Shown here: in pieces, positions 36,688 to 55,645 of the stretch
Position numbering within the stretch: the first letter of the stretch is position 1
Layout: the number at the start of each line of letters is the position of its first letter
From: Bacteroidota bacterium
Lineage (GTDB): Bacteria; Bacteroidota; Bacteroidia; JACCXN01
NCBI GenBank assembly: GCA_013696965.1
Contig: JACCXN010000091.1
Span: 186,001-250,000, forward strand
Direction: 5' to 3'
Length of the DNA: 64,000 bases
Translations under genes and position numbers: made by a program
Notes under the pieces: generated by a model
What the model was told of the DNA's origin: nothing
Database searches by the model: none
Seen by the model: only the letters and a program-made list of their open reading frames with translations

Positions 36688-36761
36688 TCCTTCTTAGCTC
36701 AGCTGGTTAGAGCATCTGACTGTTAATCAGAGGGTCCTTGGTTCGAGCCCAAGAGAGGGAG
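36688..36761 (+). tRNA. tRNA-Asn (GTT)
   Basis: The full cloverleaf folds: acceptor stem TCCTTCT/AGAGGGA (36688-36694 with 36754-36760), anticodon stem TCTGA/TCAGA with loop CTGTTAA giving anticodon GTT at 36722-36724, and T-arm CTTGG-TTCGAGC-CCAAG. CCA is not encoded. Its 3' end is the integration site of the island that follows, and the element supplies the last bases, so the gene stays intact. Confidence 0.96.
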
Positions 36762-36762
36762 C
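36740..36762 (+). repeat. attL, in the tRNA 3' end
   Basis: This 23-base copy (GGTTCGAGCCCAAGAGAGGG then AGC) overlaps the T-arm and acceptor stem of the tRNA. It matches attR at 56,137-56,159 at 21 of 23 positions. Confidence 0.85.
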
Positions 36763-36788
36763 ATCCCTTGAGTTTATAGGGGTTTGAA

Positions 36789-36821
36789 AGGGGTTTAATG
36801 AAAATTAAGCCCCTTTTTTTT
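36789..36821 (+). terminator. Terminator after tRNA-Asn
   Basis: An 11-bp stem (36789-36799 with 36804-36814, one G-U pair), a GAAA loop and eight T follow. It lies just inside the island, so it is probably supplied by the element; the presumed original tRNA terminator is now beyond attR. Confidence 0.85.
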
Positions 36822-36875
36822 ATGCTGTAATTTCTGGAGTTAATGCCTCATTCAGCTTCATTTGGATTCAAATGC

Positions 36876-36896
36876 GTTTCCCCTATTCTTTCCCCT
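36876..36896 (+). repeat. Paired TTTCCCCT motifs near attL
   Basis: TTTCCCCT occurs at 36877-36884 and 36889-36896. The same pair appears at 56,065-56,083, and a third pair at 44,428-44,448. They could be recombinase arm-type sites. Confidence 0.4.
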
Positions 36897-36956
36897 GTGG
36901 ATGTATTTAGAAAAATGCTATGTTTGTGCTGATATATACAAGTTGTGTGATGTTTT

Positions 36957-37574
36957 ATGAAACCAATATTCTCTAGGAACGAGGACATTGACAAAATTGC
37001 ATTTTTGAATTGGCGAATCTCTCCACATTCTGAAATACTTAATATACTTAATCTAGCTGATGGTTTCCTTTTGGCTGCTATTGAACTCGCTACACAATGT
37101 TTAGAAAATAATGAAGGCAAAAGAGCAGATATAATAATATTTCCAATATTAACAAATGCAAATCACGGGATAGAACTTTATCTTAAGGCTTTAACTTGGA
37201 TGCTTAACAAGCTATTAAACACTGAGTATAAGATAGAAGGAAGTCATAATATCAAACAGATTTACCAAACTGTTAAATGTAAAATAAAAGCATATAATGG
37301 ACAGCTAACTTTAAAAGACTTTGAAGAAGAAACCAAAAGTTTATCAGAATATATTACTGAATTAACTGAAAAAATCAAATCCACAGAAAAAAAAGATAGA
37401 ATGGATTTTTCCCGGTATCCTTTTAGTAACAAATATGAAAATCATTTTTATGTGGACGAAATCGGTAATGTTGAGATAGATTTAGAAAATTTTATTCTTC
37501 GTTTTAACATAATCAGAGAAAAGCTTGAATACATAACTGAACATTTTTATTATGATGAGCTAAATCAAGAATAA
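36957..37574 (+). CDS. Hypothetical protein, HEPN-like features
   Basis: This 205-residue mostly helical protein is the first gene of the island. Segments ANHGIELYLKALTWML (around residues 72-87) and EGSHNIKQIYQTV (around 98-110) resemble the helix pair and the GH(D/N) turn of HEPN-type proteins, which occur in RNase toxins and abortive infection systems. No full Rx4-6H motif is confirmed, so I infer only a loose similarity. It stands alone on the plus strand, next to the tRNA. Confidence 0.5.
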   Translation: MKPIFSRNEDIDKIAFLNWRISPHSEILNILNLADGFLLAAIELATQCLENNEGKRADIIIFPILTNANHGIELYLKALTWMLNKLLNTEYKIEGSHNIKQIYQTVKCKIKAYNGQLTLKDFEEETKSLSEYITELTEKIKSTEKKDRMDFSRYPFSNKYENHFYVDEIGNVEIDLENFILRFNIIREKLEYITEHFYYDELNQE

Positions 37575-37632
37575 AAAAACATCGTACAATCGAGTAGCCC
37601 GCCCCGTCTGAACATCAGACAGGGTGAGGCTC

Positions 37633-38214
37633 TCACCACCTCTTTTTATCAATCCATTTAATCAGCTCATTCCGCTTAAAATACAGCTTTTTTCCATCCT
37701 TATGCCACGGCAAACCTTCTTCCCTGCGCCTGTCTAATGTGGATTTGCTGATTTTTAATAAATCCATTGTCTCTTTCAATGTTAGGAATTCTTTTGTTTC
37801 AGGATAAAGCTTTTCAGACAATTTGGTTTCTTTAACAGGCTCTTCTGTTTCCGGAAACTCTTGCTGAATTTTAGAATAAGATGATATAAATTCAATTTCT
37901 GCTTCAATCCATTTCACAGGGTCGTAAATTGTTTGTTCTTCTGCAATTGTCTCTCTTTCCAAATCATACTGTTCAGGAAAACTTTCTGCAAGTTCTTTTG
38001 GTATAGTTCTTTGATATTGCTTTAAAATTTTTAAACAATATAGCAACATGCCCATTTTGTTTGAAATTGAATCTATTCCTGCAAGAAGATTGTCTAAAAA
38101 TTCAACAACCTCTCTGTTCCTGTGCAGTGATAATAAATAATTTTGCAAGAATGATAATTTCGCTTTATGTAATTGTAGAGAATTCCATTTTGATAAAAAG
38201 TAACTGTCTGTCAT
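37633..38214 (-). CDS. HTH-domain protein, excisionase-like C-terminus
   Basis: This 193-residue protein has a helical N-terminal region of unknown function and a C-terminal HTH_17/excisionase-type DNA-binding domain. That domain reads LTLKETMDLLKISKSTLDRRREEGLPWHKDGKKLYFKRNEL, with the winged-helix recognition in the STLDRRREEG segment. It begins 15 bases after the integrase gene on the same strand, so it may control excision or integrase expression. The N-terminal part is longer than in plain excisionases. Confidence 0.75.
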   Translation of the reverse strand: MTDSYFLSKWNSLQLHKAKLSFLQNYLLSLHRNREVVEFLDNLLAGIDSISNKMGMLLYCLKILKQYQRTIPKELAESFPEQYDLERETIAEEQTIYDPVKWIEAEIEFISSYSKIQQEFPETEEPVKETKLSEKLYPETKEFLTLKETMDLLKISKSTLDRRREEGLPWHKDGKKLYFKRNELIKWIDKKRW

Positions 38215-38229
38215 TATTTAGTAAAATTT

Positions 38230-39396
38230 TTAGTTATATATTTTTGAAAGTTTATTCATTGATTCATATAATCCCTTTGTTAGAGACTTGGCGTATATTT
38301 GAGTAGTGCCAATATCTGAATGCCCTAATAAATCCTTTAAATAAAGTATATGGGTATCTGCTTCAATATGATTGCATGCAAATGAATTACGGGCAGAGTG
38401 AAAAGTTAATTTCTTTTTAATTCCGGTATATATCATTAATTCTTTCAGGTTTCGGTTCACAACCTGATTTGAAATTGCTTTAAACACGTTAATTTGCCCT
38501 GAGATTGCCTCTTTTTTAAGGTGCATCAGGATTGTTTTTGCCAACGGGATAATTGGTATGGTAATCTCCTTTCCCGTCTTCTCCATCACAATTTCAAGCC
38601 TGTCCGGGTTTTCTTTGATATTACTCCATTTAAGATTGACGATGTCAGAGAATCGCAATCCTGTATAACAGGCGAAAAGAAAAGTTTCTCTTGTCGTTTG
38701 AACTCTTAGTAAATCCTCTGGAAGGCTGGCTGTTTTCAATTTTTTGATCTCCTCCACCGATAAGAATGCCCTGTTTGCATCTGCCAACTTTATTTTAAAA
38801 TGATCATATGGGTTTTTATCCAGTAGATCCTTCCGAATTGCAATTTTTATAATTGTTTTTAAACATTTATGTCTTCCAAAAGTACCGCCTGTTTTATTTT
38901 TTCTTACAAGGCGCAAATACTTGTCCAATCGTTCTATCATCTCCACATCTATATCCCCAAAGTTGAGGTCGGGATTGAATTCTTTTAGTATTTGTAGGGT
39001 ATATTTATAGGACATAATAGTTGATTCTTTTTTTACCCCAATCCACAGTTGAATCTGATCTTCAAAAAACTGGTAAAAAGTCATAGCTCCTTCCCGTTTG
39101 AAGAAGTTTTTAACTACTGTTTTTGTTACTGGTTTTCCCATTGTATCCATACGTAATACATACTGGTCAAATGCCGCAATCTTCTTCCCCAGATAGGAGT
39201 TTAAAAGTTGAAAATTCGCTCCTGAAACAGCCTTTACTGAGCCTTTATCCCAGTTCACTTTCTGAATCTCCTTTCCTGTTGGAAGTTTTATTAAATGTTT
39301 ATTCAGCCTTACTAAAAAATAGAGAGGGTGCTTGCCATTTTGCTTTACGGGTTTATCGTCCCTGATGATTAACTTGATGCTGTAATTTGTTGCCAT
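38230..39396 (-). CDS. Tyrosine recombinase (island integrase)
   Basis: This 388-residue integrase has an arm-binding N-terminus (about 1-100), a SAM-like core-binding domain (about 105-195) and a catalytic domain. The catalytic set is visible: R248 in ACYTGLRFSD, H333 and R336 in FHSARNSF, H359 in LGHSDIG and the nucleophile Y368 in TTQIYAK. It is very likely responsible for insertion at the tRNA-Asn gene 1.5 kb away. It belongs to the type common in Bacteroidota integrative elements. Confidence 0.93.
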   Translation of the reverse strand: MATNYSIKLIIRDDKPVKQNGKHPLYFLVRLNKHLIKLPTGKEIQKVNWDKGSVKAVSGANFQLLNSYLGKKIAAFDQYVLRMDTMGKPVTKTVVKNFFKREGAMTFYQFFEDQIQLWIGVKKESTIMSYKYTLQILKEFNPDLNFGDIDVEMIERLDKYLRLVRKNKTGGTFGRHKCLKTIIKIAIRKDLLDKNPYDHFKIKLADANRAFLSVEEIKKLKTASLPEDLLRVQTTRETFLFACYTGLRFSDIVNLKWSNIKENPDRLEIVMEKTGKEITIPIIPLAKTILMHLKKEAISGQINVFKAISNQVVNRNLKELMIYTGIKKKLTFHSARNSFACNHIEADTHILYLKDLLGHSDIGTTQIYAKSLTKGLYESMNKLSKIYN

Positions 39397-39646
39397 TTTG
39401 TTTTTATTTTTGTTTCAAGCGAAAAGTTCTAAATTTATTTTTGTTTTATAAAGGGAAATTATATTACTTACAGAGGCTGTGGAGAATAAAATATGTATAA
39501 CACTTTCATGATTTTTTGAGTGCGATTATAGATATAGCAGTATGTGATTGTTTGACTTACTTTAATCGCCTCATATGATCCCTTTGGTTTACTTTATTCC
39601 CTGAGTTCCCCCAATTCCCTGAGCTCCCTTAATTCCTGTTGGACTC

Positions 39647-41893
39647 TTATGCCGGTTTGTTTTTGGAATAATGCCCGTGCTTTAGTCTATACATAATTCC
39701 AGATTTAACAAATTTGGACAGATAACTTTCCGCTGTCTTGTACTTAATTTTAAAGTTTGTCGCTATTTTAAAGGCTTCTGAGGCAGAAAATTCTATAGGG
39801 AGATTATAAAAGAATTTTGCTTGTTCGTTATTGTTAAATTTTATCTGTTTATCATTAAATCTGGAGTATATTTCCATTGTGTGGATTCTTAAATATTCAA
39901 CTATTTTGATTGATTTTTCAAAATCAGAATCATTACAGAGTATCTCAGTTCTATTTTCACCCCACTCATCCATTAACCTTAAAGTTGTTAATATCATCGC
40001 TATTCTGAATGCCATAAGCCCTAATCTGCGAATACTGGCAATTAAATCTTCTCCAACAATTTCTTTAAACTCATTTTGCCACTTACCAAATAATTTATTA
40101 AATTGGGCTTGCTGCTCACCAGTTAATTTAAAAGTAAGTCCCACTTCCAGTTCATTTAGTTTATTATAGTGAAACAATAATTTCTCACTTAAACTTTTCA
40201 TGTACTCCGCCAGATCTACATTTCCATTATCGGCAAAAACATCCTGCCATTCTGTATCCGTGCTAAAGGCGTAAAAGGCAAATCTGCTAAATAATCCATT
40301 TTCAGCAGAGGGGATTAAAGACGATACTTGATTGGGCGTTCCACTTAAAACAACAGCAACATTAGGATTGAGTACATCAATGTATTCATCATCTGCCACT
40401 CTTAATAAAGAGACGGACTCATGGTGAAAAACCTTTCTTAAGAAATCGCTGTAATTTCCCCACTCATTATTCATTGTAAGACTTAAAGTGTCTGCCTCTG
40501 TTTCATAAATAATACCCCAGCCATCATTTTTATTTATTGTTTTAAGTACTGCCGAAGCACTACAATTTGCCGGAATGAATAAGCGTTTGCCATCCTCCAG
40601 TAATTTCTGATGTATAGCATGACCGAGGTATTTGGGATATTTTAGCACACCCTTTCCAGCAGAAGCGGGAGCAACTACAAATAAAAACAGAGGCATGCCT
40701 ACTTTGTCTTTATTATAAGTGCCATTAATATTTGGCATTAAAATACTTAATGTTGTTAATGACCCCAATAAAGCTATATCCCGTTCTTTTTGTTTGGTAA
40801 AAAGATTGCATACCTGCTCCAACAAGTTGGGTAAATTATTATAAACCTCCTCGGGAAATGTAGAAACATTAAAACTCTTAGGTGTGTTTAAAGGGGTAAT
40901 GTCGGGGATGAAGGGTTTGAGGGGAATTGGGGCATCAGTATTATTTTGAATTTCTGATGCCCTTGTTAAATCATACCCTGCTTCCTTAGCATAATACAAT
41001 AGCGTTTTAAAAGTTATTTTGTTCTGATAATTATTCAGGCAGTAATTCCATTTTGCGATAGAAGCGTTTTCATCATGTTTAGACCCGTCCAGACGGCAAA
41101 GCTGTAAATAAAGGTCTTTCCCCTTGTTGTTAGGGATGGCTGAAACAATAGCTAATGTCACCTTATACCACCGCTCATGATTATAGGTGATGGATATATT
41201 TCTACCAGTTAAAAATTTGGCTATATCTTCAGTAATTTTACTTGCAGAGACAGTATCCTTCCAATGCTTTTCGGCAATGCCATCCTGATTTATTTCACTT
41301 ACTTCCACACAAAACCTTTTTGCATCCCAGTTTATAAATATATTTGGATCGTATGACATAAAACACAACCGCTGAACATCTGAACCGCTTTTATCGATCT
41401 GTAATTTAAACTTTTGCTTGTAATATCCCTCTAAGGATTGAAACGCTATTTTATGGTCTTCCATTGAAGAGTCAACCATTACTAGGACTTTTAGTCCAGT
41501 TCCTGATGGAGATTTCCATACTGCTAAAGTATAAGGATCTTTGCTTATAAGTGTTTTGTTCTCTAGTAACCGATCAGAGATTTTATCTATATCTAATACA
41601 AGCAAATTGTTATATTCTAGGATATTCTCCTGCCTACGTCCTCCATTATAGGTAGCGCTAAAGGTAACTCCGGGGAGATTTGCTTTTAGTTCCCCGGCCT
41701 TCTTGACCTCACTCTCTGCAAAATATTGTTTTATATGACCGATAATCTTTTTAAATTTTCCGTTTTTTATGCGAAAAAGAATAACAATTAATGAAGCAAC
41801 CTTTGGCTGCCCTTGCTTAATATTTTCAAAAAAAGAAACGGTTATTTTTTTTCGGTTGATTTTCTTTGCCTTGCATTTTATTTCTGTTTTCAT
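39647..41893 (-). CDS. BT4734/DUF3987-type replication protein
   Basis: This 748-residue protein has a BT4734/VirE-type N-terminal region with LLVLDIDKI (D101 and D103), a primase C-terminal-like segment around 230-310 (NHERWYKVTLAIVSAIPNNKGKD), and a DUF3987 P-loop region with VVAPASAGKGVLKYP around residue 410. Proteins of this build accompany Bacteroidota mobile elements and probably help replicate the excised form. The family recognition is good; the biochemical step is inferred. Confidence 0.82.
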   Translation of the reverse strand: MKTEIKCKAKKINRKKITVSFFENIKQGQPKVASLIVILFRIKNGKFKKIIGHIKQYFAESEVKKAGELKANLPGVTFSATYNGGRRQENILEYNNLLVLDIDKISDRLLENKTLISKDPYTLAVWKSPSGTGLKVLVMVDSSMEDHKIAFQSLEGYYKQKFKLQIDKSGSDVQRLCFMSYDPNIFINWDAKRFCVEVSEINQDGIAEKHWKDTVSASKITEDIAKFLTGRNISITYNHERWYKVTLAIVSAIPNNKGKDLYLQLCRLDGSKHDENASIAKWNYCLNNYQNKITFKTLLYYAKEAGYDLTRASEIQNNTDAPIPLKPFIPDITPLNTPKSFNVSTFPEEVYNNLPNLLEQVCNLFTKQKERDIALLGSLTTLSILMPNINGTYNKDKVGMPLFLFVVAPASAGKGVLKYPKYLGHAIHQKLLEDGKRLFIPANCSASAVLKTINKNDGWGIIYETEADTLSLTMNNEWGNYSDFLRKVFHHESVSLLRVADDEYIDVLNPNVAVVLSGTPNQVSSLIPSAENGLFSRFAFYAFSTDTEWQDVFADNGNVDLAEYMKSLSEKLLFHYNKLNELEVGLTFKLTGEQQAQFNKLFGKWQNEFKEIVGEDLIASIRRLGLMAFRIAMILTTLRLMDEWGENRTEILCNDSDFEKSIKIVEYLRIHTMEIYSRFNDKQIKFNNNEQAKFFYNLPIEFSASEAFKIATNFKIKYKTAESYLSKFVKSGIMYRLKHGHYSKNKPA

Positions 41894-44427: not shown

Positions 44428-44525
44428 TTTCCCCTTCTGTTTCCCCCTTTTGAAAATCATTAAGGCAAAAATTCCACCGCCTTCAACCCGACTGATAAAA
44501 TGGTTCGACCCTAAACAGGGGTGGG
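44428..44525. repeat. Degraded internal att-like site with TTTCCCCT pair
   Basis: GGTTCGA starts at 44502 and the following bases match attL at 15 of 23 positions. A TTTCCCC pair starts 74 bases to its left (44428 and 44440); at attR the pair starts 72 bases to the left of the core. The same arrangement suggests a fossil att site joining two elements. Confidence 0.4.
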
Positions 44526-45086
44526 ACTTTTTGAAATGACTTTTAAATCATTAGAATTGACTGATAATTCCATAAGTTCAATTAAATCTGTTGCAGAACC
44601 TGTTGTATAATCAAATTTATTTGATCCAAATGATTTAAGGATCTCCTGAATATTTATTGTTTCTACATTGTGGCTTTTGATGAAAGTTAGCTCCTGTGGG
44701 TTTTTTACATTTCCATAAACAAACAGAAATTTCCAGTCCTCAGAACCTGTCAAACGGTGTCTGATTTGTTTTTTCTTTTCACTAAGAAACTTCTTCTGAA
44801 TCCAATCCTGAACAGCGAGTTCAAGTTGTTCATTTGTTCTCTTTGTAGCGTTACCTGAACCTTTGATAGAAAACTCCTCTTGTCTTTCTTTGGTTAAACC
44901 GGATATATAGTTTACAGGCCTTATGCTTACCTGAACCTCAACATGGATTTTTTCCCATTCTCCATTCCCTTTATTTTTTATTGCTAAGAGATCAATTTCA
45001 TCAATACCCATCTTTAATCCACGGATAGTAAAATACCCCTTTCTGGTCAGCCATTCTTCCACTACCTGTTCAGCTAATAGTGCCAT
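44511..45086 (-). CDS. Putative PD-(D/E)xK nuclease-like protein
   Basis: The protein is about 191 residues from the ATG at 45086 (ALLAEQVVEEWLTRKGY); the start at 45218 adds a hydrophobic leader of doubtful reality. An N-terminal helix with E10 and E11, then IDEIDLLAI and HVEVQVS, gives the E...D...ExQ order of restriction-endonuclease-like folds. The rest contains a helical linker and a short strand set. It is divergent from the XRE regulator, 141 bases apart. It could be an orphan nuclease or a toxin-like effector; this is inference from motif order. Confidence 0.5.
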   Translation of the reverse strand: MALLAEQVVEEWLTRKGYFTIRGLKMGIDEIDLLAIKNKGNGEWEKIHVEVQVSIRPVNYISGLTKERQEEFSIKGSGNATKRTNEQLELAVQDWIQKKFLSEKKKQIRHRLTGSEDWKFLFVYGNVKNPQELTFIKSHNVETINIQEILKSFGSNKFDYTTGSATDLIELMELSVNSNDLKVISKSPTPV

Positions 45087-45227
45087 TTTTTTGGTTCTGA
45101 ATTTATAATTTGATATTAATTTTGGTAACAACAAAATCTCTTTGGTAATAGCAAATATAAACATAAAAAACCTATCGGTGGCATTAAAAACACCGAAATT
45201 TTGAATCAAAAGTCCCAATATTGAATT

Positions 45228-45455
45228 ATGTTGGAACAGGAGGATTTTTTAACAGCTTTGGGGCAGAATATTAACCGGATACGGAAGGAAAAGGGCTTGT
45301 CTTTTCAGGAGCTGGCATTGGAAGCTGATATTGAAAAATCAAATTTGGTAAAACTAACATCACATGGTACAAATATTACTGTTTTAACGCTTAATAAAAT
45401 TGCCTGTGCTCTGGGGGTGGAACCTGCCGAATTGTTGAGATTTAAAACAAACTAA
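45228..45455 (+). CDS. XRE-family transcriptional regulator
   Basis: This 75-residue protein is a single HTH_3/XRE domain: LGQNINRIRKEKGLSFQELALEADIEKSNLVKLT, then TVLTLNKIACALGVEPAELL. It is divergent from the nuclease-like gene. A TTTTGA-A-TCAAAA inverted repeat at 45199-45211 lies just upstream. It may repress itself and the neighbouring operon. Confidence 0.85.
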   Translation: MLEQEDFLTALGQNINRIRKEKGLSFQELALEADIEKSNLVKLTSHGTNITVLTLNKIACALGVEPAELLRFKTN

Positions 45456-45492: not shown

Positions 45493-47508
45493 TTATTTCA
45501 ATTGTTTCTGTTTTTTCTTTTGTTTAATTTTTGGCTGTTCTTCTTCAAAGTCATAAGTCAGTGTCAAGTCAATAAAACGATCTGATTTGATTAGTTTATC
45601 AAATTGTTTTTTAAGTGATTTATATTCTTCGTCCTCATTTATTAAAGTATTTCGTAGAATTTGATAATGCCTTAAAAATTCTCTGATGGCAGGATTTGTC
45701 GTCCTTTCATTAATGTCTGTAAAGTTGCTTGTCTCAATGATTGCTTTAGCTTCTTCCCACTCGTTACTCTTTCTGATAGCTTGATACTCTTTTTTCCAGA
45801 TGTCAGTATAACCAAGTTGTCTTTCAAAGACACTTCTGTAAACAATATATGTCTCAGGCATATAAAGAATTTCAAAAAATTCTTCAATATTGTTGCCGAA
45901 TGCTTTATGAAAGAATGATGTTTTATCATTTCTTGTTGCAGGGGCAACAATGCCTTTTGTTACATTCAAAACAGATTGAATGGCTCGAATAAATTTTTTA
46001 TTCCAGAATTTACCTGTGTAATCTCGATTTTTTGCTTCTTCACCAAAAAGCGGGATGTACTTCATAGGAAATGAAAAGATAGCAATATTATATTCTTTGC
46101 AGAGCTGAATATTTATTTCTAAACGATTATATAAGTCTTCTGGTTTGTCCTTAAAGTTATAAAGAATGTAATTTGAAAGTTCACGAATACCATACTTTGC
46201 TGCTAATTTTACTGCATTTTCATATTGTTTCCTCATGCCAATATAATCAAATGCTATCCTTAATGGTCTGATTGGAATTTCACTCATCAACTTCATTAAC
46301 TCGTCTGTTACATACCTTGCGTCAGTTCCTTGGTTAAAATCTACATAACGTAACTTAGGTGATTTATTCCTGTATTTTTCATTTAGGTTTTTAAGCTCTT
46401 TGTATGCATTTAATAGATTTTCTTTTGATGTAGTTTCAAGTTTCAGAAGCTGATAGTTATCAAGTACATTATAAGCAAATTGTTTGTTTTCTCCTTTTAA
46501 TTTATTGATTAAATCTTGAAACAGTCTATATGTTCTCCTGATGTATGCCTTTTGATTTGGATGATTTATTAAATTTTTAATTGATATATCTAATTGATTA
46601 GGTTCTATAAATGTTGCTCCTTTTACAAAACCCATTTCTTTTATTTCTTGTATTATTTCAGGAAAGTTTGGCGAAGCCAAAACATTGTTGTCCATCAACA
46701 AAAGATTTTGCTGTTCACCATAAAGTTCTTTGATTTCAAAAAACTTATCATAGGTTTCAATTTTTGGTTTGTATGTTGGTTCTAAAATTGGGACAGAGCA
46801 AAAGGCACATTTTCTTGTGCAACCTTTTGTCATGAAGGTAAAGTATGCACTTTGTGTTGGATACTGATATTCTATTTCATCAAGAATGGAGTAATCAAGT
46901 GCTAAATTATCAATAATAGTTTTGTCGCCTTTGTCAAGAATACCTGGTTTGTCTAATAATCCTTGATGTGGTTTTATCCCGGTTTCTGCCTCTAATTCAT
47001 CGTGTAGCAATGAAGCTAAAACACCACCAACAAATATTTGTTTTGGGTCTTTAACTAACTTTTTCACGAAGTGTATCGTTTCAACAGTTATCTTCCAATA
47101 AAATGTAAAAAGTGTTGTTACATAAATTTTATCCCAATATGGCTCATTTTCATATTCCTTCTTTCTGAATTTAATTGAAAATTCCTCTAATGCCTTTGAT
47201 ATTAGATGCCCGTATTTCAAGTTTTCGATTTCAAAAACATCTAAGTTTTGCCTTTTGCCTGTCTTAATAAACTGTTTTATAAAAAAAGCCTTTTGTATCC
47301 ATTTGATTGAATTGTCAATTAAATTTAATTTCTTTAAACATTCATCGAATAGCTGCTCAACAACTAGATCTTTCAAATCACCTTTAAAGAACTTTACGTC
47401 ATCGCCTAAACTACGATGATACGTAGCTATTTTCATCAACCCAATTGGAGGATATTTGTTTTTATAGTTTGGTTCTACTAATAATATTTTTCGTTTTGCC
47501 GTGCTCAT
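45493..47508 (-). CDS. Radical SAM enzyme with N-terminal B12-binding-like region
   Basis: The protein is 671 residues from the ATG at 47508 (MSTAKRKILLVEPNY). The N-terminus ILLVEPNYKNKYPPIGLMKIATYHRSLGD resembles the cobalamin-binding-type domain seen before many radical SAM domains. The radical SAM cluster motif is C230-x3-C234-x2-C237 in MTKGCTRKCAFCSVP. The C-terminal third has no assigned domain and ends in a Lys/Gln-rich tail. It is the last gene of the operon and starts only one base after the stop of the HSP90-like gene. The substrate is unknown. Confidence 0.8.
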   Translation of the reverse strand: MSTAKRKILLVEPNYKNKYPPIGLMKIATYHRSLGDDVKFFKGDLKDLVVEQLFDECLKKLNLIDNSIKWIQKAFFIKQFIKTGKRQNLDVFEIENLKYGHLISKALEEFSIKFRKKEYENEPYWDKIYVTTLFTFYWKITVETIHFVKKLVKDPKQIFVGGVLASLLHDELEAETGIKPHQGLLDKPGILDKGDKTIIDNLALDYSILDEIEYQYPTQSAYFTFMTKGCTRKCAFCSVPILEPTYKPKIETYDKFFEIKELYGEQQNLLLMDNNVLASPNFPEIIQEIKEMGFVKGATFIEPNQLDISIKNLINHPNQKAYIRRTYRLFQDLINKLKGENKQFAYNVLDNYQLLKLETTSKENLLNAYKELKNLNEKYRNKSPKLRYVDFNQGTDARYVTDELMKLMSEIPIRPLRIAFDYIGMRKQYENAVKLAAKYGIRELSNYILYNFKDKPEDLYNRLEINIQLCKEYNIAIFSFPMKYIPLFGEEAKNRDYTGKFWNKKFIRAIQSVLNVTKGIVAPATRNDKTSFFHKAFGNNIEEFFEILYMPETYIVYRSVFERQLGYTDIWKKEYQAIRKSNEWEEAKAIIETSNFTDINERTTNPAIREFLRHYQILRNTLINEDEEYKSLKKQFDKLIKSDRFIDLTLTYDFEEEQPKIKQKKKQKQLK

Positions 47509-47509
47509 T

Positions 47510-49048
47510 CTAATTATATTTATCAACTATTCTTTTTTTGATTTGCTCGGAAAGATAAAAGTCTAGTTCTTCCTCTAAAATTTCAAATATTCCCAAAACT
47601 ACTGCTTTTTGCTCTTCGTTTAATTTATCGAAAACTGGAGGCGTATATTTACTAACCTCTAGTTCACTATCAGACAGACCCTTTAAAGAAATTGTCTTAT
47701 CTGCCAATATATTGTCCACTAGATTTCCTACATTGCTTGACAATGAGCCTTTCCGGATTATTCTATCAATTTCATTTTTTGCTTTAAGTGCTTTAACCTT
47801 CAATTCCGTCAACCTGCTAAGATGAAATGATTCTGTAGCTTCATTCTCGAATGCACCTCTGTTTTCTACAAAATTCTCATAAACTTTGTTATATTTTTCA
47901 ATTGTATCTAATCCATTATGAAGCTTTGATGCTGCTTGAGCCAATCTATTTTCCAAATTTTCTAATTTAAAAATCTCTGCTGCCTTTTCCTGAAATTGTA
48001 GACAAGTAGAATTCTCTACAAAATAATCTCGTCTGGCATTTGGTCTAAAACCATCACTTACAGTATGTATTTCTCCAATGAATCTTAAATTAGTCCTTTC
48101 TTGGCCAAAAAATCTATTACAGGTCATTTCGTTGCCAATTGCAATATTTTTTGTACGTAATCGAATACCCTTTTCGTAATCGAGATCAGATAACTTTACA
48201 TTAGATAACGCTCTATATCCGTACCAACATACTGCCAATAAATTTTGATCATCATCTAGAATATCAACAAAATCAACGCCAATCAGTTTAGACTCTTCTT
48301 CATTTCTTCCTAAAAATGTATTTTTATATCTTTTAAATAAAGTTTCCCCATTTATTTCAACATTATATTCGTCTAGAACTGCATTTTTATTTTTTAAATA
48401 TGATTTTATTTCTTCGATAAAAGAAAAGTTGGCGGCAAATGGAACTGGAGCCACCATAGATAAATACTCAGTTACTTTATTGGTATCTAACACAGTGTTA
48501 AAAGCATTATTAAGTGTAACGCGGAAATAATGTTTATCTACTTCTTCCTCAGTTTTCTCAATTTTTGTAATAATACTTATCGCTGCAGCTGCATCACTAT
48601 TGTCATTTCGGTTCTCTATAATCTTTTTTAAAAGCTTTGCATCAAGGGTCATTTTGCTTTTCACTGATTCACCAAAATAACTTGTTTCAAAAATTAGCTT
48701 ATCACAATAACCTAAACCTCCTAAACGACCTATCCCCCTAAATCCTTTTTGCCTTACACTATCTTTTTGAGAGTTGGCAACGTCTCCTAAGAAACGTAAT
48801 ACTTCCTTTTCTGAAACTCCTGTCGCATTATCATTTACTATAATGAGTTTACTGACGGAGTCTATAGTAATGTCAATTTTGCCTTCGCTTTTTTCTTTTA
48901 ATATTCCTAACTCAACTGCCACATCAATTTGGTCTGCTGCATTTTGGATATATTCACGGAAAATAAATCTTGCATCGTCATACATACCCGATGTTAAGGT
49001 TTCCAAAACCGTTTTACCTATCGTTGGGTTAAATTGTTTTTCCATCAT
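47510..49048 (-). CDS. HSP90-like GHKL ATPase B
   Basis: This 512-residue protein has the GHKL ATPase motifs: N-box REYIQNAADQI (E32, N36), the DNATG motif (D73) and the lid KGFRGIGRLGGLGYC (about 101-115). The N-terminal half is therefore an HSP90-like ATPase; the C-terminal half has no recognised domain. It is clearly paralogous to the gene at 51284-52828. Its start overlaps the preceding stop by an ATGA, so it is translationally coupled. Confidence 0.85.
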   Translation of the reverse strand: MMEKQFNPTIGKTVLETLTSGMYDDARFIFREYIQNAADQIDVAVELGILKEKSEGKIDITIDSVSKLIIVNDNATGVSEKEVLRFLGDVANSQKDSVRQKGFRGIGRLGGLGYCDKLIFETSYFGESVKSKMTLDAKLLKKIIENRNDNSDAAAAISIITKIEKTEEEVDKHYFRVTLNNAFNTVLDTNKVTEYLSMVAPVPFAANFSFIEEIKSYLKNKNAVLDEYNVEINGETLFKRYKNTFLGRNEEESKLIGVDFVDILDDDQNLLAVCWYGYRALSNVKLSDLDYEKGIRLRTKNIAIGNEMTCNRFFGQERTNLRFIGEIHTVSDGFRPNARRDYFVENSTCLQFQEKAAEIFKLENLENRLAQAASKLHNGLDTIEKYNKVYENFVENRGAFENEATESFHLSRLTELKVKALKAKNEIDRIIRKGSLSSNVGNLVDNILADKTISLKGLSDSELEVSKYTPPVFDKLNEEQKAVVLGIFEILEEELDFYLSEQIKKRIVDKYN

Positions 49049-49857
49049 TTACTATATTTCTTTTTTACACTATTTGGAATATTATTTCCCTCGTCTGACA
49101 AATCATGTCCGTGATATATAAGTTCACTTGTTTTGATAAAACGAACAAAGACATTGTTTTCCATATCAAAATTATAGTAATGCCCTTCGTGAAAAAATGC
49201 TTTATCTAAAAGTTCTTGAGCTTTTGAAGTATTTCCTTCTCGTTCATTATAACAACTCAAAAACGAAATTTCTCCTCCTGATTTATACATATCGTGTTTG
49301 GGATTGTGTTGAAACTTTATTTGATATTTTTCAAAAAAGTTTATTACCTCTTTGTCTGAGTTATAGTAAAGAGTATCTATTTCTGACTTTTCATTTAGTT
49401 TATTTTCTATTGACAAATTGGTTTGGGTATTATAAAAATGCTTATAAGCTATAAACTTATGTTCAAGTGCATGGTTAAACAAATGAACAACGAGATGGTT
49501 ACTTTCTTCTTTAATTTTTTGATTAAAATGATTCTTAATAATATCGGGAATAGTTGTCAAATCATTTTCTTTTGATTCTTCATATATACTCCATTTATTG
49601 TCAATCAAAAATCGTAATGTTTGTGCACTATAATAGGAAAACCCCATATCATCTATATCAGCAAATGGAAATTCTGTTGCTATTGTTTCAAAAAGTTCAT
49701 TACGTAATAATATGGGCAGTTTTAGTTTTTTTATTTGCTCGAAAACAGTAGGCACAATAATTAATAATTCAAAAAAATAATTTTTGTTACTATTGTAATC
49801 TTCTTTGCTCCAAATAAATGTAGATATATCTATTACTGCAGTAAAACTCATACTCAT
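49045..49857 (-). CDS. Hypothetical protein of the operon
   Basis: This 270-residue protein begins with a hydrophobic strand FTAVIDISTFIW that might open a PIN-like fold, but the rest does not confirm it. The C-terminal region (about residues 185-262: NPKHDMYKSGGEISFLSCYNE, NFDMENNVFVRFIKTSELIYHGHDL) looks like a conserved small domain. I do not recognise the family. ATGA overlaps at both ends couple it to the AAA ATPase and HSP90-like B genes, so it is part of the system. Confidence 0.6.
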   Translation of the reverse strand: MSMSFTAVIDISTFIWSKEDYNSNKNYFFELLIIVPTVFEQIKKLKLPILLRNELFETIATEFPFADIDDMGFSYYSAQTLRFLIDNKWSIYEESKENDLTTIPDIIKNHFNQKIKEESNHLVVHLFNHALEHKFIAYKHFYNTQTNLSIENKLNEKSEIDTLYYNSDKEVINFFEKYQIKFQHNPKHDMYKSGGEISFLSCYNEREGNTSKAQELLDKAFFHEGHYYNFDMENNVFVRFIKTSELIYHGHDLSDEGNNIPNSVKKKYSK

Positions 49858-51287
49858 TTTTTATTTAATCTTTTTTTCATTTGTGCTCTTAAAATTGCCT
49901 TTAATTCACCATCTTGATTTTCAATAAAATCTTCTGGATAAGGAAGTTCAACAATGCCAAAATCATCAATTGTGATATTATTAAACAACACGTCATTTTT
50001 TCCTACTTCAACAAATGTCAATAAAACTTTATCATCCAATTGGTTGCTTGTGTCTTCTGCAATTCGTCTTCTCAACCTCGTTATTAAGTGGTCGCTGTGT
50101 GTTTCTATTACTACTTTTTTGCCTTGTTCTACCAATGAGATTAAAAAATCTGTTAGATTGCTTTGAACTTTTGGGTGTAAGTGTATTTCGGGTTGTTCCA
50201 AAATTAACGTTTCATTTTCTTCAATTCGTAAACCTTCAACTATGATTGGTAAAACTTGGCTAATACCAAAACCAACGTGTTTAATTGTGGATTCTATTCC
50301 GGATAAACTTTTAACATAGATGATGTAAGAGTCAGCTTCTTTCTTCGAATAAATATCAGCACACAATTTAAATCTTTCACAAAGCCAATATTTCACTGCA
50401 TTTAAAAAACTATCTTCAACTTTAACAAAACATACGCTTTCACTTATATCTTCAATTTTAAAAAAAGTTATTGTTTGTTTGGACAACTCGTAGAATGCTT
50501 CAGCCACATTGCCTCCGTCAATTCCAACAGAATTACTTTTACCATACAAAGAATACTCATCTTTTGGAGCCAGGCGAAGTGGCCCAACATAGTTTAGATT
50601 AGCAAAAAAATCCTTGATAACTGTTTTAATTCCATCAAATTTTAAAACCGCTTTACTGGTACTTTCTACATCTTTTTTATTACCCTTTAAATCAATAATT
50701 TCTGTTTTGAATTCCAATTCAACATCAGATGGGAAAAAAGATGAAAAATTTATCTTCCTAACCTTATACTTTCCCTGTTCTTTATATAACTCGTCATTAA
50801 AAACTGCAACATTTGTATTAATTGATAAATCATCATTAATTTCAAATTTAATATTGTGTTCTTGTATTTCAGTGTCATTCGTAATAAACTTTACTTCAAA
50901 AAGCGAAACAGTTATTTTATTATCTCTTAAATCAAATTCTAAAGTAATGTTTAAGTCATAATTATCAAACGCATTATGAATGCTTATCTCAGGAAAATGA
51001 TTGTATTTGGTTAATTCTGATTTATTGAATGTAAAACCAACTTTTAATTTATTACTTTGTTTTTTATCCTTAATGATGTCAAGATAATCACGTACTTTAA
51101 ATAATTTGCCATCAATATTTAAAGCATTGTCTTTATTAATCGTTTCTAATGACTGTTTTAAAAATAGTAATAATTGAATAAAAGACGACTTTCCTGAACT
51201 ATTTGTACCAGACAAAATAGTCAATGGCCGCATCTCATAATTTACTAGTGAACCGATTGACTTAAAATTAAATATTGATAGTTTCAT
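49854..51287 (-). CDS. AAA/ABC-type ATPase with DUF3696-like C-terminus
   Basis: This 477-residue ATPase of the SMC/OLD-like type has Walker A GTNSSGKSS (27-35), signature FGISQVLPI near 340, Walker B TLILEQPEIHLHP (360-372) and the switch region VVIETHSDHLITR (392-404). The C-terminus (DDFGIVELPYPEDF) resembles the DUF3696 motif. Proteins of this type occur in defence islands with nucleases. It is coupled to both neighbours by ATGA overlaps. Confidence 0.85.
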   Translation of the reverse strand: MKLSIFNFKSIGSLVNYEMRPLTILSGTNSSGKSSFIQLLLFLKQSLETINKDNALNIDGKLFKVRDYLDIIKDKKQSNKLKVGFTFNKSELTKYNHFPEISIHNAFDNYDLNITLEFDLRDNKITVSLFEVKFITNDTEIQEHNIKFEINDDLSINTNVAVFNDELYKEQGKYKVRKINFSSFFPSDVELEFKTEIIDLKGNKKDVESTSKAVLKFDGIKTVIKDFFANLNYVGPLRLAPKDEYSLYGKSNSVGIDGGNVAEAFYELSKQTITFFKIEDISESVCFVKVEDSFLNAVKYWLCERFKLCADIYSKKEADSYIIYVKSLSGIESTIKHVGFGISQVLPIIVEGLRIEENETLILEQPEIHLHPKVQSNLTDFLISLVEQGKKVVIETHSDHLITRLRRRIAEDTSNQLDDKVLLTFVEVGKNDVLFNNITIDDFGIVELPYPEDFIENQDGELKAILRAQMKKRLNKK

Positions 51288-52828
51288 TTATATTCTTCTT
51301 CTAATTTTTGAATTAATAATTCTGCGGTTTCTTTGGGCAAAACATTTTTTATTACTCCAAAGATATTACTTAAAAATTTCTTTTGTTCCTTTTTCAACTT
51401 AGAAAGTTTATCAACTCTAAAGACTGGCTTCGTTTCAACATTGGGAACAAAATCAGTCGCAATATCAAATGAAGTATTTGAAGATGCTCGTTCTAATATT
51501 TTATTGATTGGTGTATGTGTGACTCCGTTTTTATTTTTAATGGTTTCAAGTTTTGAACTTGCTTTAATTGCTTCTCCTTTCTTCTTTTCAAGAGTTTCCA
51601 AGAATGCTTTTTTCTCTTTAATGTCAACAAAACCTTCTTTCTCCTTTTGCTTATATTGAGTTATCGTTTCGTTGTAGCTATTAATGGTTTTTACAGCACT
51701 ATTTACTTCTGATGCTGTGTAGCAAAGTTTATGAATTGTTGTGTGAAAGAAAGTTTTTAACTTGTTTTCAAATTCATAATAAGTGTTTGTCTCAGAAAAG
51801 TTATCTCGCCTTGCATTAGGAATTAAATCTTTGTGCAAACCATATACTTCACCAAAAAAGTAAAATTGAAATCTCCTGTCTCTTTGCAATTTGGTTAAAG
51901 TGTCTTCATTACCAATTTGAATATTGGATTTGCGTAATCTAAAACCTCTTGAATAATTTATTTGATTAAGTGATTGATTCTTCTCAGTTATTCCATACCA
52001 ACCCAAAAACAATTTGATATTTTCGCTGTCGTATTCTTTGAAAAATAAAACATCTATAACTTCTCCAATTTTTTTGCGGTTGCTTTGGTCAGTTCCTTCA
52101 TAAATGTATGAGTTGTAGCCTTTGAAAAGCTGGTCAGTATTTATGAATGTCTTGTATTCGTCAATAGTTATTTCTTCCTTTTCGAGTTCATCATAAATCT
52201 TACGAGCATACACAAAAGAATTACTGAACGGTACTGGTGCAACCATTGACAGATAATTTCTGATTTCCTTTACATCCAACAAATCTTTATTAGTTACGCC
52301 AATAAGAGAGACTTTAAAATAGTGTAATTCAGCTTTTTCTTTTACTTTAATAAGTGTTGTTACTTCATCAATTACTGCTGAGGCTTCTTCTTTTTGACTT
52401 CTGTTGTTGATTATGCTTTTCAATTTTGTTGCATCCCAAGTCATTATTGATTTAACCGCTTCTCCTTTAAATGAAGTTTCAAAAACCAGCTTATTACAGT
52501 AGCCTAAACCGCCTAATCTTCCAATGCCTCTGAAGCCTTTATCTACACCTCTTTGTTTAGTTGATTGAGCAATATTTTTTAAGATTTCTACAACCTTGTT
52601 TTCTTCAATACCTGTTGCATCATCTTCTACGGAAATTATTTTTTTGTCTGCATCAATTGAAATGTGAATTTCTCCTTCATTAACTAATCCTTGTTGTCTT
52701 GCCTTATCTATTTGATCGGCAGCATTTTGAATATACTCTCGATAAATAAACCTTGAATCATCATACATTCCAATTGTAAGTGATTCAATAACATCTTTAC
52801 CAATAATTGTTTTATTGAATTTATCCAT
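51284..52828 (-). CDS. HSP90-like GHKL ATPase A
   Basis: This 514-residue protein has the N-box REYIQNAADQI (E31, N35), a D70-A-T-G motif and the GFRGIGRLGGLGYC lid (98-111). It shares most of its first 110 residues with gene B of the operon, so the two arose by duplication. The C-terminal half is unassigned. It overlaps the HerA-like gene by 8 bases and the AAA gene by an ATGA. Confidence 0.85.
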   Translation of the reverse strand: MDKFNKTIIGKDVIESLTIGMYDDSRFIYREYIQNAADQIDKARQQGLVNEGEIHISIDADKKIISVEDDATGIEENKVVEILKNIAQSTKQRGVDKGFRGIGRLGGLGYCNKLVFETSFKGEAVKSIMTWDATKLKSIINNRSQKEEASAVIDEVTTLIKVKEKAELHYFKVSLIGVTNKDLLDVKEIRNYLSMVAPVPFSNSFVYARKIYDELEKEEITIDEYKTFINTDQLFKGYNSYIYEGTDQSNRKKIGEVIDVLFFKEYDSENIKLFLGWYGITEKNQSLNQINYSRGFRLRKSNIQIGNEDTLTKLQRDRRFQFYFFGEVYGLHKDLIPNARRDNFSETNTYYEFENKLKTFFHTTIHKLCYTASEVNSAVKTINSYNETITQYKQKEKEGFVDIKEKKAFLETLEKKKGEAIKASSKLETIKNKNGVTHTPINKILERASSNTSFDIATDFVPNVETKPVFRVDKLSKLKKEQKKFLSNIFGVIKNVLPKETAELLIQKLEEEYK

Positions 52829-54479
52829 TTTTATACTGTTTGTAAAGTGGTCTTGGAAACTTAATATTCAATAATGACCTGAATATAGGATTTTGTAAAA
52901 TATATTCACCTTGCTTCAATCTTGTTAACATTGATTTGTAAACTGGGGGTACGAATTTATAATCCGGTTTTGAAATTTCTATTGCATTCGTTCTTCCATA
53001 TGCGTGAGTTGCACAATTCCCTTTAACACGGTCGTGTATATCACTTTTGAATTGCTCTGCTGCAAACAAAATAATTCCCAAAGAGCGTCCTCTTTCTGTT
53101 ATGTCCAACAATTGTCTTAAAATCGGTGAATTTTTTGGCACATCCTTACTTCCGTATTTGTTCAGCTCGTCAATAAATATTACAATTTTAGAAGGAATTT
53201 CAGCTTCTTCTCTGTCTGTAATTTGTCCAAGTTTTAAATCGTATATTGCTCTCATAACATCACCAAACACAAAGCCTTGTGCTTCTTCATCAAGTTTGGC
53301 AATGTCAATAACGTGAATATCGTTTTTCTTAATTTGCTTTATAGATTCATGTAAACGAACTTCTGTTCCATCGTTTTTAAGCGAGTTTGAGAAGAATAAA
53401 TTTCGCTCTAAAGCTTTTCTAAAAAGGCGATAAAATTTTCTCCAACTCAAGACCGAAATAGTTTTGTCTTTTCCTGTATCTCCTTTTTCTTGGTGCTTTT
53501 TTATTTCTTCTTTTAGATCTTCCCAATTCGTAATTCCATTGAAATGCCCCTCACCTGAGGTTATGTAATTTACAATTGATTCCATTGATTGTGTTGGGTC
53601 ATCAATGTTTGAAAAAAGCAAATCTAAACTCTCTTTATCTTCTTCAAATAGATATTTGTATTGAAATGCCTTTTTGAGTTTCTTCTGACTTTCAACATCC
53701 TTTACATCAGCGTATGTGGTGGATTTAGTATCTTTAGAAAATGGATAGAAATATTTTACATTTTTAAAAGGGGTGGTTTCAATTTCTAAATCTTTATAAA
53801 TTTTTTTGTCCTCTTTTGTTAGTTCATCATTACTTTCATCAATAGCTAATAAATCCCTGCCTTTTACATTAAGCAAAACGAAAGCAACGCTTTCATTCGG
53901 GTCATTTTTAATGTATTGTTCTTGTATAGCTTTTAATAAGAACATAGCATACGAAGTTTTTGAAGCTAATCCTGAAATTCCTGAAATATTTAGATGTGCT
54001 CCTTCGGGGCCAATTAAAAAATGTGAATTGAAATGAACAGGAACTGTTATTTTATCTTCGTCCTCATACATTTCGATTACACCACAAGGCAAAGGATTTT
54101 TAATTCCTTTTAAGCCTAAAGCCATTTTTACATCTTCTTCATTAGCGAGCGAAACTGTATATCCGTCTAATACTGGGGTATAAATATTTTCAGAATTGGC
54201 TACAACTTTAGCTTTTACATAGTTCATTCCTATTCTCTGTGTGTAGCTTTTTGATTCAACTTCTCCAAAATCGCTAGAAATGTATCCTGCTAAAAAACTT
54301 GCTGCATCAGTTAAATGGGATATTTCTTCCACAACACCAAAGGTTACAGAGTTTTTTATATGTTCTACTTTTACAACATCAAATGGTTTTATAATTAGGT
54401 GTTTGTCTGTCCAAAAGAAAAATTCATCTACTGTTGTAGGAACTTTTTCAGTGGCAATAATTTTTCCTATTTTTTTCAT
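52821..54479 (-). CDS. HerA-like ATPase
   Basis: The protein is 552 residues from the ATG at 54479 (MKKIGKIIATEKVPTTVDEFFFW), which matches the HAS-barrel-type opening of HerA. The TAATG overlap with the NurA-like stop supports this start over the upstream frame at 54569. Walker A is a degenerate ISGISGLASKTS (165-176), where Ser replaces the second Gly of the canonical GSGKS. Walker B is IVIFIDEL (432-439), followed by the arginine-containing ITERGRSLGI. HerA proteins pump or translocate DNA and pair with NurA nuclease, which precedes it here. Confidence 0.8.
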   Translation of the reverse strand: MKKIGKIIATEKVPTTVDEFFFWTDKHLIIKPFDVVKVEHIKNSVTFGVVEEISHLTDAASFLAGYISSDFGEVESKSYTQRIGMNYVKAKVVANSENIYTPVLDGYTVSLANEEDVKMALGLKGIKNPLPCGVIEMYEDEDKITVPVHFNSHFLIGPEGAHLNISGISGLASKTSYAMFLLKAIQEQYIKNDPNESVAFVLLNVKGRDLLAIDESNDELTKEDKKIYKDLEIETTPFKNVKYFYPFSKDTKSTTYADVKDVESQKKLKKAFQYKYLFEEDKESLDLLFSNIDDPTQSMESIVNYITSGEGHFNGITNWEDLKEEIKKHQEKGDTGKDKTISVLSWRKFYRLFRKALERNLFFSNSLKNDGTEVRLHESIKQIKKNDIHVIDIAKLDEEAQGFVFGDVMRAIYDLKLGQITDREEAEIPSKIVIFIDELNKYGSKDVPKNSPILRQLLDITERGRSLGIILFAAEQFKSDIHDRVKGNCATHAYGRTNAIEISKPDYKFVPPVYKSMLTRLKQGEYILQNPIFRSLLNIKFPRPLYKQYKNG

Positions 54480-55645
54480 TAAAATAAATTTAAAAAATTG
54501 ATGTCGCTTAAATACTTGCTTTTTATGAAACTCTCTGTTAAGTGTATGGGATAAAGGTGGTTCGCCCATCTTGCATCTTTACCGTAACATACTGGATTTC
54601 TTTCGTTGATGATGTTTGCTGTTATCAAATCAATTTCTTGACTGTCTAATCCGTTTTCAATTTCTTCGTCAGTGATTAATATTTTTTCAATTTTAACCAC
54701 ACCTGAAAATGGGCTAAATGTGTGTTCGGATTTTCGAATTCTAACATACCAAACTGCAAAAAACACATTCCCAACTCTTTCGCTTTTGTATTTATATGCA
54801 GGCGTTCTGTGATAAATTGGCAAAATAGCAATTTTATCAGCGTTGCTCTTGTTATTTTTATCCCTACATAATTCTGGGTCAAACATTTTTGATACACCAA
54901 TAACACATTTGTAATGACTTTTAAACTTAGAAAGTTCTTTAAAGTTTGAACTTCTTGCTGGTGCATACTGTAATGAACCGTCTTTTATTAAATATCGGTC
55001 TGGGTTTATTAAATTCTTTGTACTTAGATGTGCAACAATTTTCTTTTCAGTATCTATCATTTCATCTTGAATTGTTGCAATTCCTAATTGTTCGTATTTG
55101 AGACCACCTTCTTGCTTTTTTGAATCGTAGGAAAGAATTTTTGAAAAACTTACCTGTGTTTTTTCAATTCGTTTTGTTTTGTTGATTTTGCCAGCCAAAG
55201 CATTAAAAAACAAGGTGGCATCGCCACCATTTGGGTTTGCTCCTTTTGGCAAAGACAAAACAAGGCTGTGTTGAAATTCAGCACATTTGAATTGGCTTGG
55301 GTTATTCCTTTCACAGCATGCAACACCAATCTGCCCTGCAATAATTGGATAAACATTTCTGTTTATTTCAATGTCGTCAACTTTGTAAGTTCTTCTTGAA
55401 CCATCTAAGAAAAAATGAAATAGTGGGTCATGGTTTATTATTTTGTCAGCAAGTGTTTTTAAACTTTTAGAGGTGTTGAGGTTCGTGTCGGTTTCGCCAA
55501 ATTCTTTTAATACTACCGATATTTCCTTTTCTTTCGAGTCAAAGTCAAGCGTCGGAACTCTGATTTCATCGTCAGCACAGTAGCGAAAAGATGTATAACA
55601 CTTTCCATTTGTCTCATTTGCAACTATGTCTAATACCTTATCCAC
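54479..55645 (-). CDS. NurA-like nuclease
   Basis: This 388-residue protein has the two acidic motifs expected of NurA: FLDGSRRTY (D81) and LIKDGSLQY (D222). The C-terminal WANHLYPIHLTESFIKS resembles the NurA tail. It is placed directly before a HerA-like ATPase with which it overlaps by one base, the usual partnership. It is the first gene of the operon. The NurA call is inferred from motif order and partner; an isolated search could place it in a related nuclease family. Confidence 0.7.
   Translation of the reverse strand: MDKVLDIVANETNGKCYTSFRYCADDEIRVPTLDFDSKEKEISVVLKEFGETDTNLNTSKSLKTLADKIINHDPLFHFFLDGSRRTYKVDDIEINRNVYPIIAGQIGVACCERNNPSQFKCAEFQHSLVLSLPKGANPNGGDATLFFNALAGKINKTKRIEKTQVSFSKILSYDSKKQEGGLKYEQLGIATIQDEMIDTEKKIVAHLSTKNLINPDRYLIKDGSLQYAPARSSNFKELSKFKSHYKCVIGVSKMFDPELCRDKNNKSNADKIAILPIYHRTPAYKYKSERVGNVFFAVWYVRIRKSEHTFSPFSGVVKIEKILITDEEIENGLDSQEIDLITANIINERNPVCYGKDARWANHLYPIHLTESFIKSKYLSDINFLNLF

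Follow-up and report, generated by a model that had tools for sequence, protein, structure and literature searches.

A radical SAM enzyme paired with HSP90-like ATPases in a modular, mobile, defence-type gene set

Among radical SAM (rSAM) enzymes, those with a known part in phage defence are chiefly viperins, makers of nucleotide drugs. The rSAM protein considered here resembles the prokaryotic viperins in the concept of an antiviral rSAM enzyme only: in contrast to them, it is, judged by its gene neighbourhoods, the constant part of a mobile set with exchangeable nucleases, in which it is paired with an HSP90-like ATPase. It is encoded by the last gene of a seven-gene operon in a stretch of 64,000 nucleotides from a Bacteroidota bacterium (contig JACCXN010000091.1, positions 186,001 to 250,000), hereafter called the window.

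Parts of this operon and of its relatives recall several described systems. On the one hand, HerA-NurA, SIR2-HerA and HerA-DUF4297 share with the window operon the pairing, in a defence context, of a HerA-type pump with a candidate nuclease; the window system differs from them by its constant HSP90-like ATPases and its rSAM enzyme, and its NurA-like protein is too divergent for Pfam. On the other hand, two genes of an internal cassette, D and E, recall NsnB and, weakly, NsnC of Menshen (NsnA, NsnB, NsnC), but the window lacks NsnA/DUF262, has a second HSP90-like ATPase instead, and carries the cassette inside a NurA-HerA-HSP90-rSAM core. Membership of Menshen was rejected, no DUF262 or NsnA match being present among the nine window proteins scanned. 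The Dpd (7-deazaguanine) and Dnd (phosphorothioate) systems resemble a second lineage of relatives, in which a DGQHR protein is DpdB/DndB-like and an SNF2 helicase DpdE/ZorD-like. Unlike Dpd and Dnd, however, this lineage showed no recognisable DpdA, DndC or DndD in the scanned proteins, its likely writer would be the rSAM enzyme, and the profile scans gave no DndB/DGQHR match for the window proteins. Lastly, MiaB/RimO and the cobalamin or cobalamin-like rSAM enzymes (TsrM, MgmA, AprD4) share with the window enzyme a two-domain fold (Z 12-14), whereas the window enzyme has neither the cysteines of an auxiliary cluster nor a DxHxxG motif. No account of an rSAM-HSP90-HerA/NurA system was found in the literature, which is weak evidence of novelty as most subscription papers were out of reach; the system hints at a kind of restriction system not yet described.

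The seven-gene operon and its setting

The genes of the operon and two features of its surroundings are as follows (window coordinates):

54479..55645, minus strand: gene A, NurA-like putative nuclease (tentative), 388 aa, DGSR motif, first gene of the operon
52821..54479, minus strand: gene B, HerA-type ATPase (PDB HerA 7f6d, E = 4.7e-34)
51284..52828, minus strand: gene C, core HSP90-like (GHKL) ATPase, 514 aa
49854..51287, minus strand: gene D, AAA15/OLD-type ATPase, NsnB-like (E = 5.4e-58), Walker A GTNSSGKS and LEQPEIHLHP; cassette
49045..49857, minus strand: gene E, 270 aa, weak likeness to Menshen NsnC (E = 4.9e-4); cassette
47510..49048, minus strand: gene F, second HSP90-like (GHKL) ATPase, 512 aa, EYIQNAAD, DNATG, GRLGGLG and PNARRD; cassette
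45493..47508, minus strand: gene G, rSAM enzyme, 671 aa, CxxxCxxC at C230/C234/C237
38230..39396, minus strand: tyrosine integrase
36688..36762, plus strand: tRNA-Asn, possible integration site of the operon-bearing element

The operon thus reads NurA-like, HerA, HSP90-like ATPase, AAA15 (NsnB-like), NsnC-like, second HSP90-like ATPase and rSAM, with overlaps of 1-8 nt at B/A, C/B, D/C, E/D and F/E and a gap of 1 nt between F and G. Orthologues of gene B align from Met31 of a longer frame (52821-54569). Genes C and F both encode the N-box, G1 and G2 ATP-lid motifs (EYIQNAAD, DDATG/DNATG and GRLGGLG) and lie above the Pfam cut-off for HATPase_c_3. Annotation of the operon relied on Pfam, PADLOC and NCBIfam profiles, which returned only general rSAM similarity for G and by which no nucleotide kinase, signal-binding domain or RNase was recognised in the operon proteins. 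When MADS was considered, gene D scored 28.2 bits against MAD3, for which the curated score is 420. Gene A had no Pfam or PDB match, and its structure model reached a pLDDT of only 50.6; it is tentatively named a NurA-like nuclease because of its DGSR motif and its homology to a Marinitoga camini virus 1 protein that adjoins HerA and is annotated as a Rad50/Mre11-associated exonuclease.

The earlier note had placed the rSAM gene at the end of this operon, and it does close it: 3′ of G come a plus-strand HTH gene (45228-45455) and then, about 275 nt off, a minus-strand gene. The latter (44511-45218), which the HTH gene separates from the rSAM gene, encodes a 235-aa protein with no Pfam match and a weak YraN-like one at E = 0.17. 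Farther beyond the 3′ end of the operon (36688-41893) lie the tRNA-Asn gene and genes for an HTH_17 protein, the tyrosine integrase and a DUF3987 protein, which makes it probable that an integrative element carries the operon. The window was found to contain no attachment repeat of at least 15 nt; its matches to the tRNA-Asn region were of 14 nt and chance-like.

The radical SAM protein and its predicted fold

Gene G is an uninterrupted frame of 671 codons plus a stop, read from an ATG; an alternative TTG start at 47526 is possible and falls inside the tail of the preceding gene. Since orthologues at 60-85% identity preserve both the frame and the operon, the frame is more than a product of chance. 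The intact cluster motif noted earlier bore up well: C230-T-R-K-C234-A-F-C237 is the sole CxxxCxxC of the protein, and its three cysteines are retained in 20/20 aligned sequences. Further conserved motifs are EPxYKNKYPPxGLMK, DNNVLAS, DFNQGxDAR and SFPMKYxP. The Pfam Radical_SAM profile matched G with E = 6.7e-6 and 26.8 bits, below its cut-off of 29.5, which marks a divergent member of the superfamily. The cluster motif, a TIM-barrel core and fold matches with Z up to 14.2 nevertheless make the protein a radical SAM superfamily member.

An AlphaFold2 model built from 19 sequences (mean pLDDT 84.8, pTM 0.83) was compared with known folds by VIA-align. The best match was AprD4 (Z 14.2 over 359 residues, 3.7 A), followed by MgmA (13.7), MiaB (13.7), MTAB (13.0), TsrM (12.7), RimO (12.5), CysS (11.7) and OxsB (11.3); both domains of the model align with AprD4, MgmA, MiaB, TsrM, CysS and OxsB. 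A Rossmann-like domain ahead of the barrel is well predicted at the N-terminus in this model, and residues 504-641 at the C-terminus are modelled as helical, with no TRAM-like strands. A search of solved structures gave nothing convincing, and a search of viral folds returned general rSAM folds only.

Three family comparisons follow from the earlier note, which had compared the N-terminus with a B12-binding region and had pointed to methylthiotransferases and viperins. The B12-binding likeness stands at the level of the modelled fold, in both domains, and fails at the level of sequence: Pfam gave no B12-binding match at E up to 1, and none of the 20 aligned sequences has the DxHxxG cobalamin motif, which is typical of class B cobalamin-dependent rSAM enzymes and absent from some of their members. 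The methylthiotransferases have three further conserved cysteines for an auxiliary cluster and a C-terminal TRAM beta-barrel. With them the kinship extends to the fold and not to family membership: the score against TIGR00089 (MiaB/RimO) was 17.1 bits for a cut-off of 251, every curated family cut-off was likewise missed, and no conserved cysteine beyond the three of the cluster was present across the 20 sequences. An assignment to MiaB/RimO was thus rejected on family score, auxiliary-cluster cysteines and C-terminus. The viperin comparison is not supported. A viperin-like enzyme matched over the barrel only (194 residues, Z 10.3) and ranked behind the two-domain rSAM proteins, and none of the families of PADLOC-DB 2.0.0, which includes viperin models, matched at E up to 1; an assignment to viperins was rejected.

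Gene sets around the enzyme and their distribution

The enzyme is rare and patchily distributed, being present in 6/395 genomes of the phylum and 4/395 of the class, and among 198 relatives the only full-length match was that of the window itself. The NurA-like profile matched 5 of the 395 phylum genomes, all of them among the six that are rSAM-positive, and the rSAM of the sixth is a fragment. Four orthologues (60-85% identity) in contigs of named genomes all retain A-B-C together with G.

The wider set of relatives was counted over long forms (at least 500 aa), which are found at 30 loci besides the window. This count leaves out L055, L057 and L060, which share contigs with L037, L040 and L036, as well as L068, where no rSAM frame was found; it retains near-copies among the type 2 plasmid loci, several of which are near-copies of each other. 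An HSP90-like ATPase gene lies in the operon of 29/30 of these loci and is the immediate same-strand neighbour of the rSAM gene in 26/30. By contrast, HerA occurs in 13/30 and in one lineage only, and it also adjoins the short homologue found in Marinitoga camini virus 1. The idea, raised in the earlier note, that homologues always travel with HSP90-like and HerA genes is thus nearly true of the former and confined to one lineage for the latter. In the viral case (L045:9860-13686), the rSAM gene adjoins HerA and a NurA-like gene, and no HSP90-like ATPase was seen in the 21 kb examined.

Two lineages were distinguished. Lineage 1 has the plan NurA-HerA-HSP90-rSAM with an exchangeable cassette between C and G. 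This slot is occupied by D-E-F in L024, L050 and L051 as in the window; L021, L022 and L052 have in it a third HSP90-like protein and a 330-370-aa protein (H-I), and in L023, L031, L032, L046, L053, L079 and L080 it is empty. It varies even among close relatives, with D-E-F in the window, H-I in L021 (rSAM 84% identical) and an empty slot in L023, which implies that the cassette is exchanged while the rSAM gene stays. Lineage 2, found on alphaproteobacterial plasmids and viral contigs, has the plan (DGQHR/ParB, SNF2, PIN)-rSAM-HSP90: the HSP90-like ATPase gene lies directly 3′ of the rSAM gene, a DGQHR protein is often encoded 5′ of it, and the extras are an SNF2 helicase, a pair of ParB-like proteins and/or a PIN nuclease that brings an HSP90-like ATPase of its own. 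Plasmids of Rhizobium, Mesorhizobium, Novosphingobium and other hosts (L041-L044, L047-L049) carry DGQHR-rSAM-HSP90-like sets along with SNF2/ParB and PIN_8 plus HSP90-like modules in varying order. At another locus (L033:6573-11659), an rSAM and HSP90-like pair lies by an integrase gene, with an HNH+WYL protein and an unclassified 253-aa protein encoded upstream.

In the rSAM tree, from which a 220-aa fragment (L054) was left out, the NurA-HerA lineage forms one clade (14 rows, support 83/94) and 15/16 ParB-type rows fall into another (100/100); several divergent rows are long-branched and of unsure placement. Over 14 loci, pairwise identities of the rSAM protein correlate with those of HerA (rho 0.85), the NurA-like protein (0.81) and the HSP90-like protein C (0.65), and host descent may contribute to these values. 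Comparison of gene sets shows that rSAM and the HSP90-like ATPase form a near-constant pair around which nuclease modules are exchanged. Judged by this gene content, the enzyme belongs constantly to a modular and mobile system of defence type and is not a stray metabolic gene.

A scan of ten neighbouring proteins from other rSAM loci identified Lamassu LmuB (1e-232) and PDC-S06 (3e-195) at L032 and type I methyltransferases at L053 and L079; two proteins of L024 gave weak matches and four proteins none. TmtA is encoded at L061. At L038 (7134-12600), type IV CRISPR effector genes (Csf1, Cas11, Csf2, Csf3) come directly before an rSAM relative, and a second rSAM gene with a weak B12-binding match comes after it.

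Possible substrates of the enzyme

A defence role for the system is inferred from composition, mobility and neighbours, and a substrate for its enzyme from the threads given below. The earlier note had proposed that the enzyme either modifies DNA, RNA or a nucleotide or is a metabolic passenger; the passenger fails, as set out below, and among the former a nucleic acid is favoured. We rank first, with a probability of a little under one half, that the rSAM enzyme forms the core of a modular, restriction-type system and there modifies a nucleic acid, probably DNA. It would be the obligate catalytic part of a horizontally moving anti-invader system, using SAM-derived radical chemistry on nucleic acid as the writing half of restriction. 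The HSP90-like ATPase would serve as an ATP-driven clamp or switch in the fashion of MutL/MORC, and HerA would pump unmodified DNA into the NurA-like nuclease. The modules exchanged around the rSAM-HSP90 pair are NurA-HerA, NsnB/NsnC with a second HSP90-like ATPase, a PIN nuclease with a second HSP90-like ATPase, or an SNF2 helicase with ParB/DGQHR proteins. The distant stand-alone cousins of phages would, in the company of DNA methyltransferases, put a related mark on phage DNA.

DNA is suggested as the substrate by the DGQHR and SNF2 partners of lineage 2, by a PD-Lambda-5_A partner at one locus and by phage cousins that lie beside methyltransferases (MTases). In lineage 2, the DGQHR protein matched DpdB (1.5e-17) and Pfam DndB (1.8e-11), and the SNF2 helicase is nearest to ZorD/DpdE. 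The one locus is L034 (8361-11614), the sole long form without an HSP90-like partner, where the rSAM protein is paired instead with a PD-Lambda-5_A protein (8.4e-72) that has a ParB-like start, as read by eye, and DGNRR; no usual partner was found for the homologues of this protein in phages and plasmids. PD-Lambda-5 has been described elsewhere (PMC9519451) as a compacted RM+Abi system. The RNA-modifying MiaB among the fold kin was also counted in favour of a nucleic-acid substrate, but the substrates of these kin range over sugars, proteins, RNA and small molecules, and the fold therefore does not choose among them. Counting against DNA, no DNA-recognition domain is evident.

The phage cousins fall into phrog_9298, "radical SAM domain protein" (P0001, E = 9.2e-38; Marinitoga virus protein, 4.1e-116). 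They belong to the same rSAM branch as the window enzyme and differ from it in their length of about 300-370 aa and in having neither a helical C-terminus nor an HSP90 partner; members of one subfamily often lie beside DNA MTases. In this NatCom-like subfamily, a DNA MTase gene is directly adjacent in 32/52 viral loci and flanks the rSAM gene on both sides in 15. MTases account for 47/102 adjacent genes as against 11/579 at gene distances 2-10, a control taken from other positions in the same loci, with queries that came mostly from phage neighbourhoods themselves. The adjacency recurs in 8/14 sequence clusters and involves several MTase types. The LoVE-like subfamily had an adjacent MTase in 0/25 loci (2 of its 27 loci being without an rSAM frame), no MTase was seen within the stretch viewed in vir215 and vir335, and a viral scan with the Marinitoga rSAM protein found nothing. 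These counts supersede an earlier four-phage test of gene distance (p = 0.018), which was biased as 4/7 of the phages viewed had been picked for their MTase. In the Oscillospiraceae phage NatCom_21982, the rSAM gene overlaps a type II MTase gene upstream and has a C5 MTase gene downstream. A conserved MTase-rSAM-C5 MTase gene set is seen on viral contigs L115-L166 and in record PV036431.1 (27726-31855), and the set suggests a step of phage DNA modification not yet described. The phage pairing of rSAM with DNA MTases offers an independent handle on the substrate, but the cousins are remote from the window enzyme (about 30% identity over 100 residues) and have no HSP90 partner, so any transfer of substrate from them to the window enzyme is weak.

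A fuller version of the DNA reading is tentative and, taken whole, rather doubtful: the enzyme would write a new DNA mark by C-H activation, the HSP90-like ATPase and interchangeable nucleases would read the absence of the mark, and phages would have captured or evolved the stand-alone relatives, which together with DNA MTases would mark the phages' own genomes. If the enzyme marks DNA, radical chemistry would join restriction-modification, and the system would provide a clear test of the role of HSP90-like ATPases in bacterial conflict.

Ranked second, and unlikely in our estimate, is a modification of protein, be it the HSP90-like partner, a nuclease or a small peptide, by which an effector would be armed or gated. 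The closest neighbour nearly everywhere is indeed an HSP90-like protein and not a nucleic-acid reader, one of the fold kin, MgmA (Z 13.7), is a protein methylase, and an rSAM enzyme in other conflict systems has been proposed to modify a peptide effector (PMC7159879). However, many HSP90-like variants and swapped effectors go with one rSAM enzyme, which argues against any single conserved protein substrate except HSP90 itself, and the links to DGQHR/ParB and to phage DNA MTases would go unexplained.

An improbable alternative is that the enzyme makes a nucleotide product, which would either terminate chains in the manner of viperin products or act as a signal to switch on the nuclease modules. 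Exchangeable effectors fed by a signal would also account for the modular cassettes, and viperins are a precedent for antiviral rSAM enzymes (PMC12926258). Set against this are the better match of the model with AprD4, MgmA and MiaB (Z about 14) than with any viperin-like fold (Z 10.3), the empty PADLOC search and the want of a recognised nucleotide kinase or signal-binding domain in the operon.

Still less probable is a MiaB-like modification of RNA (e.g., tRNA), with the enzyme as a repair or immunity factor against an RNA-cleaving effector: comparisons of fold and of profiles both place MiaB and RimO among its best relatives and the type 2 lineage has a PIN nuclease domain, but the extra cysteines of methylthiotransferases and the TRAM-like strands are missing, and in the window operon HerA is a pump for DNA, while no RNase was recognised there.

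That the enzyme is a metabolic passenger unrelated to the job of the operon is very improbable, for although rSAM enzymes are common in metabolism and 24/197 relative genomes (the window's own excluded) have other frames of rSAM size that match weakly and in part, this reading is contradicted by the near one-to-one co-occurrence with the NurA-like gene and the near-constant HSP90 pairing, along with the tight gene packing and the location of full-length relatives in defence-type gene sets rather than cofactor pathways.

Signs of decay are visible in some genomes, where the HSP90-like gene is split over two frames (L080:8544-10133) or a 220-aa rSAM fragment stands alone (L054:2294-2956).
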